The notes beneath the pieces are model-generated. The model had not been told where the DNA came from, made no database searches, and saw only the letters and a list, made by a program, of their open reading frames with translations. This document shows positions 8,096 to 11,447 of a stretch of DNA of 64,000 nt, one piece after another. The first letter of the stretch is position 1, and each line of letters begins with the position of its first letter. The translations under genes were made by a program, and so were the position numbers. This stretch comes from Aurantibacillus circumpalustris (GTDB taxonomy: Bacteria > Bacteroidota > Bacteroidia > B-17B0 > Aurantibacillaceae): contig NZ_CP121197.1 of NCBI RefSeq assembly GCF_029625215.1, forward strand, positions 2,790,001 through 2,854,000, read 5' to 3'.

Positions 8096-8126
8096 GGTAG
8101 ATCTATTTATTTACCCAACTTTTGCT

Positions 8127-8134
8127 TATCTTTA
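8127..8134 (+). promoter_or_regulatory. Putative -7 box of ECF sigma operon (TATCTTTA)
   Basis: TAnnTTTA variant of the Bacteroidota -7 consensus, 30 nt before the ATG at 8165. Confidence 0.45.
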
Positions 8135-8164
8135 TTCGTATAAGTTTAAAGATACTAAGTAATT

Positions 8165-8716
8165 ATGGATATTCAGCCTAAACTCATTGCATTGTGCATT
8201 AAGCAGGACCGAAAGGCTGAGTATGAGCTGTATAAAATTACCTATAGTTATTTAATGAGTATTTGTATGCGTTATTCTAGAGACAAAGATATTGCCTCTG
8301 AATCGCTAAATATGGGCTTCCTTAAAATATTAAAAAATCTAACAAGTTATAAACCTGAAGTTCCTTTCAAATCATGGATTCGCCGGGTAATGGTGAATAC
8401 ACTTATTGATGAGTATAGAAAGAATAAAAAAGAACGTGAAAGAATAACCTACGTTGAGAATTATTACGATAACTCTGATTTTTCAGATGTAAACGAAGCC
8501 TTAAGTCGAATAAATTATAAGCAGATTTTAGTACAAATTAATCTGTTACCAGAGGCTACAAAAAAAGTATTTAATCTATTTGCTATTGATGGTTATTCGC
8601 ATAAGGAGATAGGTGAAATGCTTGGTATTAGTGAGGGAACCTCGAAATGGCACTTAAATGCTGCGAGGCAAAAATTAAAAGAATATATTGAAAATAGTGT
8701 ATTAACTAGAATATAA
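8165..8716 (+). CDS. ECF-type RNA polymerase sigma factor
   Basis: 183 residues. Region 2 spans about residues 10-90 (YLMSICMRYSRDKDIASES, then FKSWIRRVMVNTLIDEYRK). Region 4 spans about 115-178 and ends in a helix-turn-helix, YSHKEIGEMLGISEGTSKWH. There is no sigma region 1 or 3, as usual for ECF factors. It would direct RNA polymerase to a small set of promoters. The next gene starts 4 nt after its stop and encodes a protein with an anti-sigma-like N-terminus, so the pair should form a signalling unit. The signal and regulon are unknown. Confidence 0.92.
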   Translation: MDIQPKLIALCIKQDRKAEYELYKITYSYLMSICMRYSRDKDIASESLNMGFLKILKNLTSYKPEVPFKSWIRRVMVNTLIDEYRKNKKERERITYVENYYDNSDFSDVNEALSRINYKQILVQINLLPEATKKVFNLFAIDGYSHKEIGEMLGISEGTSKWHLNAARQKLKEYIENSVLTRI

Positions 8717-8720
8717 AAAC

Positions 8721-10238
8721 ATGAGCTTCGAAGAAGAGTTTGATAAGATAATAAGACGAAAGGCAGAGGAAGAGAACTATCCTTTTGATGAACAGAACTG
8801 GAACAAGACCAACAGTATTTTGGATGCAGAAAGAAAAGTTGCGTCTATAAATAAATTGAAAAGATTTTATTTGCCTGTTGCGTATACTGTAATTCTCAGT
8901 TCTATTGGATTTGTTGCTTATAACGTTTTTAAGACTGAAAATGCAAACACTCCAGATAATGTTGTTTCCCATAAGACTATTTTGGAGAATAAAATGGATC
9001 AACCTAAAAACTCAAACACAGAGAATGAGCAAATGATTGAAAATAGTTTAAGTTCTCTAATAATTGAATCACCAGAACGTTTAAACAATACAAAACCTAT
9101 TCTAGTTGCTGAATCTGAAATTAAAACTCAATCTGCTGACTTAAAAAGTAATTCTGAAAAATTTGTTGAGTCTGGTTCTGCAAAAACGAAAACAATTCCA
9201 AACACTTCTGAAATTAGCAATTCCGGACAAGAAATAAACTTAAAAGGTGCTGAAGTAACTTCGAGTAAGAGTGATTTGTCTGGTTTAAGTGCAGAGCCAA
9301 TTAACTCTGACGATCCAACTACCAGTAATTCTAAAAGCGATGTTAGTAAGGATGATGGTGAAATAACCCAAGCTAGAACTAGCACCGGTGAATTAAGCAC
9401 TGCTTCGATAAATAAAGAACAATCGCTTTCAAAAAGCAAGAGTGATGTTCAAGCTAATTTTTCTGGTATAGAAGAAACTACTTTGAAAATAGAATTCCTA
9501 TCAGCAGTTCACTCCTTTATTCCTCTAGAACAAAATGAGTCTGATTTAGTTTCTACTCCATTTACTTTTTTAAAGCGTTATGACGACGATTACTACGAAA
9601 AAAACATAAAACGAAAAATACATTATTTCAATCTTGAAGCAGGAGCGGCTTATCTCTTAGGTTGGAAAGCAAAAGAGGGTAGCGATGGACAAGGTTTTAA
9701 TTGGTTCGCAGGCGTTAATTACGGTCGTTACCTCACAAATAAAACAAGTATTAGTTTTGGTATTCAGGCATATTCGATAACTAATATTAAACAACCATTC
9801 TATCAAATTGCTCAAAAAGAATATGGCTTCGGATCGGTTAGTATTTATACAAAAATAACTACAAGTCAATTGTATTATATTGCTGTACCTTTAAAATTTA
9901 ACTATCATATTAATGCTACTAATGAAGTAGGATTGGGGCTGAACGCTGCGTATTTAATAAGCGCAAAAAGCAACAAATCAAAATATTATGTGCTTGATGG
10001 TGAAGAAAAAAGTATCGGTTCTGACAATGGTAATAGTAATTCTATATATGAAGGAACAAATACTATTAACCTTATGTTAACAGCGCAATACAAAGCAACA
10101 CTTAGCAAACGTCTTGGCTTAAGTCTTGAACTTAATTATGGAATCACTGATATTTTTAAAAACATGGGTGATATAAAAACTTCTGAAACACCAGTTGGTA
10201 TTCGTTTAGGATTAAACTATACCTTATTTGATAAATAA
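8721..10238 (+). CDS. Anti-sigma-like, transmembrane and outer-membrane barrel fusion protein
   Basis: 505 residues. Residues 1-48 are charged and presumably cytoplasmic (FEEEFDKIIRRKAEEE, a conserved Trp at 27, then ILDAE), like the short N-termini of Bacteroidota anti-sigma proteins. One helix spans about 49-70. Residues 71-265 form a Ser/Asn/Glu/Thr-rich low-complexity linker. About 290-505 is a beta-strand-rich domain resembling the PorT/OMP_b-brl porin-like family, ending NYTLFDK. No cleavable signal peptide is seen. The predicted topology runs cytoplasm, inner membrane, periplasm, outer membrane in one chain. It follows the ECF sigma gene by 4 nt and probably controls it (inference). 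Confidence 0.8.
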   Translation: MSFEEEFDKIIRRKAEEENYPFDEQNWNKTNSILDAERKVASINKLKRFYLPVAYTVILSSIGFVAYNVFKTENANTPDNVVSHKTILENKMDQPKNSNTENEQMIENSLSSLIIESPERLNNTKPILVAESEIKTQSADLKSNSEKFVESGSAKTKTIPNTSEISNSGQEINLKGAEVTSSKSDLSGLSAEPINSDDPTTSNSKSDVSKDDGEITQARTSTGELSTASINKEQSLSKSKSDVQANFSGIEETTLKIEFLSAVHSFIPLEQNESDLVSTPFTFLKRYDDDYYEKNIKRKIHYFNLEAGAAYLLGWKAKEGSDGQGFNWFAGVNYGRYLTNKTSISFGIQAYSITNIKQPFYQIAQKEYGFGSVSIYTKITTSQLYYIAVPLKFNYHINATNEVGLGLNAAYLISAKSNKSKYYVLDGEEKSIGSDNGNSNSIYEGTNTINLMLTAQYKATLSKRLGLSLELNYGITDIFKNMGDIKTSETPVGIRLGLNYTLFDK

Positions 10239-10244
10239 ACAACA

Positions 10245-11387
10245 ATGAAAAAAATTGTAATTTATATTTCATTTTTTCCACTAATATTTTCTTTTTGTAG
10301 AAAACAAGAAAATTTACCTGAGCCTGAAATTACAGACCCTCATTTCTTTGTTAAATGTGTTATGGATGGTCAAGCTTTAGATCTTGAGGCGGGGAATGAA
10401 GAGTATTATATGAATTCATCTTGGTACCATCAAGACTCAGATTACGTTTTTGTTTATAAGGCTAATTTGGCTAAACAAATTGGAGTTGGTTATCAAATAA
10501 CTATTTTATTTAATGATAACAAATATTCAGACCCAAATGATAAGATGAGTCCCGATAGTGCATTAATAATTGGAACCCATTTATACAATGATCAAAACTT
10601 ATCAGATGCTACTCAAATGATAAAATTTGAACCGGTAAAATCTGAGGTTTCTAATTCTTCATACTCTTGGTTAATTAATGATGGATCTACTATAACTACC
10701 TATGGTGTCCCTGGAATTGAGGATAGGTATTCAATTTCAGAAATTTTAAATGTGGGGAAAACATATTCTGTTACTTTTAATTATGATGATCCTTCTGGTG
10801 TTTGTAGCGCCCCACCTTTAACAAATGTGTTTAAAATGGGTAGCAGCTTACAAGCCACAGTTAATTCTGTTCGTGATATCAATACCCCTGATTTAAAGTA
10901 TACATTAAGTTATTCACTACTGGATTCAAATAAAAATCTTGAATGCACATGGACCTTACCGGATGCAACAAATGAAACCACACCGACGTTTAGCAGAATA
11001 TTTACTCCTGGAGTACATCTAATTAACCTGAAATTAAGGGATAAGAATTCTGGTGAGGTTTGTAGTACTGTATATCAATTAGATGCTTCTGGAAACAATT
11101 GTACTGCTAATTATAATGCTGTTTTTTCTCCAATTCATAATAAGAGATTGTACGCTTCTATAACCATCCTGTTAACTGATCCAAATGGCATTGTATATAG
11201 CTCAAAAAATCTTGTTCAACCAAATGAAAGTAATTTTGAAATTACTTCTGTTATTGATTATAAAGTCAATGAAAAAAACGAAAAAACTAAAAGTATTGGA
11301 GTTCGATTTAATTGTGTAGTAAAGAACGGTAATAATGAAATTAGTCTGAAAAACGGAACTGCTAAGGTAGCCGTCGCATACAAATAA
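10245..11387 (+). CDS. Hypothetical lipoprotein, third gene of ECF operon
   Basis: 380 residues, starting 6 nt after the barrel-fusion gene. The signal peptide ends FFPLIFSFC with RKQ after the cysteine, a lipoprotein-type site. The body is predicted beta-rich; around residues 205-275 (YSLLDSNKNLECTWTLPD, then FTPGVHLINLKLRD) it resembles an Ig/PKD-like fold. No catalytic motif is visible. Its place suggests a periplasmic or surface partner of the sigma/anti-sigma pair, or a target co-expressed with it. A strong bidirectional terminator follows. Confidence 0.8.
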   Translation: MKKIVIYISFFPLIFSFCRKQENLPEPEITDPHFFVKCVMDGQALDLEAGNEEYYMNSSWYHQDSDYVFVYKANLAKQIGVGYQITILFNDNKYSDPNDKMSPDSALIIGTHLYNDQNLSDATQMIKFEPVKSEVSNSSYSWLINDGSTITTYGVPGIEDRYSISEILNVGKTYSVTFNYDDPSGVCSAPPLTNVFKMGSSLQATVNSVRDINTPDLKYTLSYSLLDSNKNLECTWTLPDATNETTPTFSRIFTPGVHLINLKLRDKNSGEVCSTVYQLDASGNNCTANYNAVFSPIHNKRLYASITILLTDPNGIVYSSKNLVQPNESNFEITSVIDYKVNEKNEKTKSIGVRFNCVVKNGNNEISLKNGTAKVAVAYK

Positions 11388-11410
11388 GGAATTGAAAAGA
11401 TTTTTCAAAA

Positions 11411-11447
11411 AGAAACCCCGCCTTTAGAAAAGGCGGGGTTTCTTTTT
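11411..11447. terminator. Bidirectional intrinsic terminator
   Basis: Perfect 15-bp stem (arms 11411-11425 and 11429-11443) with a 3-nt loop and T/A tracts on both sides. It sits between the convergent lipoprotein and DUF2911 genes and can serve both. Confidence 0.93.

Follow-up and report, generated by a model that had tools for sequence, protein, structure and literature searches.

A putative trans-envelope switch of the Dma class: an ECF sigma factor, a dual membrane-spanning anti-sigma protein and a PKD lipoprotein in Aurantibacillus circumpalustris

Can a single polypeptide carry information on the outer membrane directly to a sigma factor in the cytoplasm? The question is raised by three genes of Aurantibacillus circumpalustris (assembly GCF_029625215.1, contig NZ_CP121197.1, positions 2,790,001 to 2,854,000 of the forward strand; the whole stretch of 64,000 nucleotides that was analysed is referred to as the window), which lie on the same strand at 8165-11387 of the window with intergenic gaps of 4 and 6 bp. 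An interpretation of the letters alone, referred to below as the sequence-only reading, had proposed that the first gene encodes an extracytoplasmic function (ECF) sigma factor and the second a single protein linking cytoplasm, inner membrane and outer membrane, and this assignment of domains holds in Pfam searches, AlphaFold2 models and profile homology. We propose, with a probability of about 0.74, that the three genes encode a self-activating trans-envelope switch of the Dma class, known from Bacteroides thetaiotaomicron, which would feed a sigma factor cascade. The features, in window coordinates, are:

8115..8141, + strand: predicted ECF promoter CCAAC-N17-CGTAT, about 24 bp 5' of the sigma start codon (motif conservation)
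8165..8716, + strand: ECF sigma factor of 183 amino acids, Das/ECF21-like clade (Pfam, TIGR02937, tree)
8721..10238, + strand: Dma-type dual membrane-spanning anti-sigma protein of 505 amino acids (open reading frame, fold model, profile homology)
8721..8864, + strand: residues 1-48, putative cytoplasmic sigma-binding domain with an invariant Trp27 (conservation, homology to Dma N-termini)
8865..8930, + strand: residues 49-70, predicted inner-membrane helix (AlphaFold2 model, hydropathy)
8931..9611, + strand: residues 71-297, predicted disordered tether, 138-280 residues among 18 aligned members (AlphaFold2, alignment)
9612..10235, + strand: residues 298-505, predicted 8-stranded OmpA-type outer-membrane barrel (Pfam, AlphaFold2, fold comparison)
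10245..11387, + strand: PKD-domain lipoprotein of 380 amino acids, lipobox Cys18, third cassette component (lipobox, PKD matches, gene coupling)
11407..11447, + strand: perfect inverted repeat with a T run at its end, likely terminator, 3' of the third gene (read in the sequence)

The middle protein and the Dma class

Dma proteins of B. thetaiotaomicron are reported to consist of an N-terminal anti-sigma domain, a helix, a disordered tether and a C-terminal barrel, to be encoded beside ECF21 sigma factors and to occur in Bacteroidota only (PMC13088901; this and the other papers given by PMC number are cited from excerpts throughout). Since this architecture and the anti-sigma action have been published for Bacteroides, the central idea of the sequence-only reading was already in print. 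The AlphaFold2 model of the window protein (nine sequences) has helices at residues 3-17 and 24-73, a pLDDT (predicted local distance difference test) below 50 over residues 71-288, and a high-confidence barrel at about 301-504, in which eight main strands were counted by reading the strand list and 16 of 21 ten-residue block means were at least 85 (lowest 69). The tether of the window copy comprises about 218 residues, 17% of them Ser, so that the serine-rich linker proposed earlier stands as a disordered segment and is longer than the roughly 195 residues given for it. Similarly, the C-terminal fold is a barrel of the outer-membrane type, as had been supposed, of the small OmpA kind rather than porin-like. 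Its nearest solved folds are of the OmpA/NspA/OprF type (Foldseek, VIA-align), for instance 1p4t (Z 17.0, root-mean-square deviation 3.0 over 154) and 4rlc, OprF (Z 16.4); the Z scores of about 16-17 to OmpA, NspA and OprF place the barrel with the eight-stranded OmpA family in fold only. In Pfam, the protein matched OMP_b-brl_2 (E 1.1e-5, 26.0 bits, cut-off 27) and more weakly OMP_b-brl, and at E values up to 1 it matched neither the OmpA-named domains, membrane or peptidoglycan-binding, nor the FecR domain of FecI/FecR cell-surface signalling.

The alignment of 18 members is consistent with these divisions. Identity per column was 0.37 in the N-terminus, 0.14 in the linker and 0.35 in the barrel. 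A hydrophobic segment at 40-72 exceeded the mean hydropathy cut of 1.6 in 17 of the 18, the membrane segment of the window copy (49-67) lying just under it at 1.59. Of 17 members scored, 16 have more Lys and Arg in the 15 residues before the helix than after it and one (L063) has equal numbers, which fits an inner-membrane helix with its N-terminus inside.

Homology to Dma proteins was found at both ends. An hhalign comparison of the N-terminus and helix with a profile of 13 rows, two of them Dma2 orthologs, gave a probability of 98.4 and an E value of 5.1e-15 over 66 columns; the profile score of 75.6, where the highest among 100 column shuffles was 23.5, speaks for homology only. The barrel matched three Bacteroides-type Dma-like proteins (probability 90.7, E 1.2e-6). 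The ortholog identity of Dma2/Das2 in genome G294 was assigned because the gene order there (nitronate monooxygenase, DUF4858, DUF4943, barrel protein, sigma factor) is that reported for BT_1555-BT_1559 (PMC13088901); genome G286 looks alike. A recurring alignment had suggested that the N-terminus mimics the sigma factor linker, an idea that was dropped (hhalign probability 0.3%, P 0.22).

The sigma factor matched TIGR02937 (1.4e-26) and Pfam regions 2 and 4 above cut-off. In a tree of 75 rows, built without 6 sequences of the source genome and 8 of G294 that are long or partial sigma-like proteins, one clade of 37 was obtained with support of 100/98, the bootstrap being unsettled according to the program. 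This clade contains the cassette sigma factors, the Das2 orthologs, a further sigma factor of G294, two more sigma factors of the source genome and 24 of the 25 phylum sigma factors linked to the N-terminal module discussed below; the 37 other ECF rows and the remaining module-linked sigma factor (L108) lie outside it. Every structural feature of Dma proteins that could be tested is present in the sequence or the models, namely N-terminal homology, helix, tether, barrel and an adjacent sigma factor of the clade. These comparisons indicate that the window protein is Dma-type, with a predicted ability to bind the sigma factor.

Gene coupling, the lipoprotein and the cassette surroundings

In the source genome the middle gene has three paralogs, all three with a sigma factor gene upstream and a lipoprotein gene downstream. 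The middle protein is present in 31 of 37 genomes of the genus, and at the loci read out the sigma factor gene is directly upstream in 29/29, two of these loci being truncated at a contig end; the lipoprotein gene is downstream in 28/29, the 29th lying at a contig edge. The same cassette occurs in six further genera of the family, with the sigma factor gene upstream at all 11 loci found, and thus spans at least seven genera. Frequent occurrence of the middle gene apart from any sigma gene, which would have spoken against the proposed link, was not seen in these counts. No relatives were found in viral contigs, plasmids or phages (phages by DNA search), and the eight named relatives are all records of metagenome-assembled genomes.

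The third gene product, which had been described as a lipoprotein that might act with the middle protein, gained further support in this role. The residues flanking its lipobox Cys18 are conserved, a PKD_4 match was obtained for all 12 lipoproteins scanned, and the PKD match of the window copy is weak (0.0018); no DUF4943 or NigD match was found in the Pfam scan of this copy. Full-length copies were detected by profile search in 30 of 34 genomes of the genus. In the 32 genomes common to this search and that for the middle protein, both genes were found in 28 and neither was detected in four (G003, G024, G026, G027). Within the 28 genomes, a list without those found in one search only, 52 of 52 lipoprotein genes, one of which is partial, follow a Dma-type gene at a distance of 0-70 bp. 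Conversely, the lipoprotein gene is present at 52 of 53 places with a Dma-type gene, the 53rd being cut by a contig end. Furthermore, the three-gene order is kept, with a full-length lipoprotein relative, at L085 in a genome of another family of the same class (G102), where the upstream sigma gene was counted by eye since the called start overlaps it beyond the limit of the script; therefore, the cassette extends beyond its family. The lipoprotein search beyond the family scored five candidates per genome and says nothing of absence there.

Because of this strict coupling to the Dma gene, a sensing role of the lipoprotein is favoured: it would be a dedicated partner of the barrel, most likely its ligand-binding or state-sensing subunit. 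Alternatively, though this is less likely than not, the sigma factor has the lipoprotein only as an output, with no part in sensing, and its place in the operon resembles that of DUF4943 in Bacteroides. The third gene there, BT_1557 (DUF4943), is dispensable for the vesicle phenotype of B. thetaiotaomicron (PMC13088901), and other genes with a lipobox-like start trail the middle gene at several loci of the phylum (L090, L094, L104 and L110); however, the one-to-one copy number and the joint absence with the Dma gene across the family suit a partner better. A literature search, which covered open-licence PubMed Central (PMC) only, found no description of a PKD lipoprotein alongside such a sigma/anti-sigma pair.

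Across the phylum, the N-terminal module stands behind a sigma factor gene at 26 of 26 loci of the sample (44 rows from outside the source genome, of which 29 had their loci examined and three, L102, L103 and L109, were set aside as lacking the module), and its C-termini vary, with barrels, short unclassified ends (225-263 amino acids in total) and TonB plug or vWA domains. At L107 (G333:C1) the module behind the sigma gene ends in a TonB plug match just below cut-off, and at L087 (G075:C8) in CarboxypepD_reg, plug and vWF_A/VWA domains; both proteins may represent the anti-sigma module fused to other envelope domains. The module proteins of 225-263 amino acids at L084, L086, L096, L097, L106, L111 and L112 lie behind sigma genes of the same clade and are followed by genes without a lipobox-like start, and the three that were scanned (L084, L111, L112) had no Pfam match. 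In the source genome, a divergent protein (L046:1073-2452; G000, sigma at 2344570) with a helix at 41-59 lies behind a sigma gene of the clade and has no Pfam barrel match.

The cassettes have surroundings of two kinds. That of the window lies 3' of an aldolase gene (Pfam DeoC/LacD) and a carboxyl-transferase gene (Pfam Carboxyl_trans), the latter read by us as acetyl-CoA carboxylase beta, and is followed by DUF2911 and peptidase M1 genes in the opposite orientation. A terminator scan reported none 3' of the third gene; in our reading, the T run of the inverted repeat at 11407-11447 forms part of the base-paired stem. Each of the three paralogous cassettes of the source genome is directly followed, on the same strand, by a gene for a protein of 658-718 amino acids with a type A sorting tail of the type IX secretion system (T9SS) above the NCBIfam cut-off, and seven further downstream genes, chosen for a nearby PKD hit, encode similar tails. 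With a tail model built from these first ten downstream proteins, the tail was found in the next gene of 9 of 12 further copies chosen blind to what lay downstream (of the others, one was cut by the contig and two had the next gene on the opposite strand) and in none of eight cassettes beside the carboxyl-transferase gene. The 12 were second copies in their genomes or the sole copies in G007 and G033, and the upstream neighbour was read in one of them.

A conserved promoter-like motif and its predicted targets

ECF promoters typically have AAC at -35 and CGT at -10. The motif CCAAC-N17-CGTA was found in all 28 of the upstream regions scored, at about 14-63 bp from the start of the sigma gene, with a mean of 0.01 in composition shuffles; this count leaves out L068 and L082 (contig ends) and L120 (a copy of L057), and the start codon of L076 is 3 bases off. 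The three paralogs of the source genome have CCAAC-N16-18-(C/T)GT upstream of the sigma gene. The spacer sequences differ widely, and therefore the two boxes are what is kept. Across the phylum the motif type is kept only in part: of 27 regions upstream of Dma-type sigma genes, 9 contained CAAC-N16-18-(C/T)GT, where shuffling gave a mean of 0.8, compared with 3 of 51 for other ECF sigma factors.

The longer form CCAAC-N17-CGTAT gave nine hits in the source genome, compared with four for the control; six lay inside open reading frames and three before genes, namely the cassette, a gene for a sigma factor of 288 amino acids and a gene for a protein with a LON-substrate domain. Among the 23 ECF sigma genes of this genome, only that of the window has the motif. 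A stricter pattern gave 29 hits in 34 genomes of the genus, 16 of them at the cassette (control 3). Two of the three targets in the source genome rest on a search made after the motif was known. The view that these two sites outside the cassette are unconserved was rejected, since the motif is kept at both genes with a spacer of 17 or 18.

The 288-residue protein has regions 1.2, 2, 3 and 4 and is thus a primary-type sigma factor. The motif with a spacer of 16-18 was found before its orthologs in 27 of 30 genomes, 25 of them with N17 (shuffled mean 0.01-0.04); it is missing in G036, which has a cassette, and in G026 and G027, where none was detected. In G003 and G024 (no cassette) and G028 and G033 (with cassette) the match to the primary-type sigma factor is only 71-72%. 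No motif was found upstream of its two paralogous primary-type sigma genes in the source genome. Before the LON-domain gene, the motif was found in 21 of 27 genomes (shuffled mean 0.16), the spacer being N17 in 7 of them and N18 in 14; three of 30 loci (G015, G033, G007) had no anchor and were left out, and the LON genes of G026 and G027 fell outside the sample. Deletion of dma2 in B. thetaiotaomicron is reported to raise das2 (log2 4.54) and the operon to which it belongs (PMC13088901). Together with the motif at the three genes, this points to self-activation plus a cascade to the second primary-type sigma factor.

The product of the LON gene (L207:726-1484, with orthologs L271-L300), which the predicted promoter would serve, is a stand-alone protein with a LON-substrate domain. 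One or two stops are read through in the match to 7 of the 30 orthologs, probably because the first 55 or so codons of the query lie outside the gene. Homology begins some 55 codons into the open reading frame, and the true start probably lies there.

Proposed mechanism, alternatives and known systems

On the observed architecture, homology, gene coupling and conserved promoter-like motif at three genes, the following course of events can be proposed. In the cytoplasm, the ECF sigma factor would be retained by the N-terminal 48 or so residues of the middle protein. The helix would serve as its inner-membrane anchor, the disordered tether would bridge the periplasm, and the OmpA-type barrel would reside in the outer membrane; the location of the lipoprotein is presumed. 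If the state of the outer membrane or the ligand of the lipoprotein changes, the barrel or the tether might be altered and the sigma factor thereby released, both the nature of the signal and the release step being conjectural. The freed sigma factor would then transcribe its own cassette, the second primary-type sigma gene and the LON-domain gene from CCAAC-N17/18-CGTA, if the motif acts as a promoter and is read by this sigma factor. In cassettes of the other kind, a T9SS-exported protein would also be made; gene order prompts the guess that this protein is the ligand of the lipoprotein. A bolder version is, in our judgement, unlikely: the PKD lipoprotein would dock on or thread through the Dma barrel and in some copies read the T9SS-exported surface protein, so that one continuous polypeptide reports to the ECF sigma factor and through it to the second primary-type sigma factor, global transcription being reset by surface state.

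Canonical anti-sigma factors act via proteolysis. By analogy, the middle protein might be cut by a protease at the helix or the tether. The barrel would then function like any other outer-membrane protein and the N-terminal fragment like a classic anti-sigma factor of the RseA type; the long, disordered and unconserved tether would be a good protease target. We consider such cleavage improbable, since the fusion is a single open frame in 29/29 loci of the genus (one running off the contig end) and in 11/11 loci of other genera, and since the Bacteroides work treats Dma as spanning both membranes (PMC13088901). That an ordinary outer-membrane protein with an odd N-terminus lies behind a sigma gene by chance is hardly credible: the barrel does belong to the common OMP_b-brl_2 family and two phylum hits (L102, L109) are plain secreted proteins without an upstream sigma gene, but the N-terminus is conserved at least as well as the barrel and is homologous phylum-wide to the modules behind sigma genes at all 26 loci.

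Several points weigh against the trans-envelope switch as proposed. The Pfam score of the barrel is slightly below the curated cut-off, and among the 11 proteins from other genera there is one, L202, in which the hydropathy cut gave no helix. The insertion into the outer membrane of a barrel tethered to the inner membrane would follow by analogy with the Bacteroides work. A low-confidence AlphaFold2 model of the linked pair of sigma factor and N-terminus, computed for the ortholog L115 with one TAA read through and with an alignment that held sigma rows only, gave a predicted template modelling score (pTM) of 0.40 and N-terminal block means of 42-49. As for the regulon, orthologous upstream regions are dependent, and thus the shuffles overstate significance; the motif is absent before the primary-type sigma gene of G036, which has a cassette, before the LON gene of G001, G013, G014, G023, G036 and G672, most of which have a cassette, and before two Bacteroides-type Dma operons. 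Finally, no T9SS gene follows the cassette of the window.

Outer-membrane state is read via an OmpA-type barrel in two systems that are not homologous to this cassette. In RcsF-OmpA, the proteins are separate, the lipoprotein RcsF is the sensor and the signal passes through a phosphorelay. SigX-CfrX-OprF likewise consists of separate proteins (PMC8999054). Closer to the cassette are a sigma/anti-sigma pair of Phocaeicola vulgatus with the same architecture and EcfO-Reo of B. fragilis, of which EcfO is cited in the same paper; the anti-sigma factor is predicted to span the periplasm and to end in an outer-membrane barrel, with a likely function in envelope-stress response, and, in contrast to the present cassette, no PKD lipoprotein partner is mentioned in the excerpts of that paper (PMC9308784).

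The closest systems are Dma1/Das1 and Dma2/Das2 of B. thetaiotaomicron, in which loss of either Dma protein raises vesicle output via the cognate sigma factor (PMC13088901). The cassette shares with them the N-terminal anti-sigma domain, the single helix, the tether and the C-terminal barrel, the adjacent sigma factor of the same clade and a three-gene operon, which in B. thetaiotaomicron is induced when the anti-sigma gene is deleted. In contrast to them, it belongs to another family of the class, its third gene encodes a PKD lipoprotein instead of a DUF4943 or NigD protein (as judged from the window copy), up to five copies occur per genome, some copies have a T9SS substrate behind them, and control of a primary-type sigma factor is predicted. 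This work extends a signalling class studied in gut Bacteroides to another family of Bacteroidota. The Dma class gains a candidate for its sensor subunit, a putative promoter sequence and a predicted regulon with a second primary-type sigma factor among its members. Both the stimulus of Dma proteins and the reach of their signal thereby become testable, with the lipoprotein as a specific partner and CCAAC-N17-CGTA as a ready reporter. Compared with the known systems, the inseparable lipoprotein, the spread over at least seven genera, the T9SS-linked copies and the conserved motif with its predicted cascade to a second primary-type sigma factor look new.

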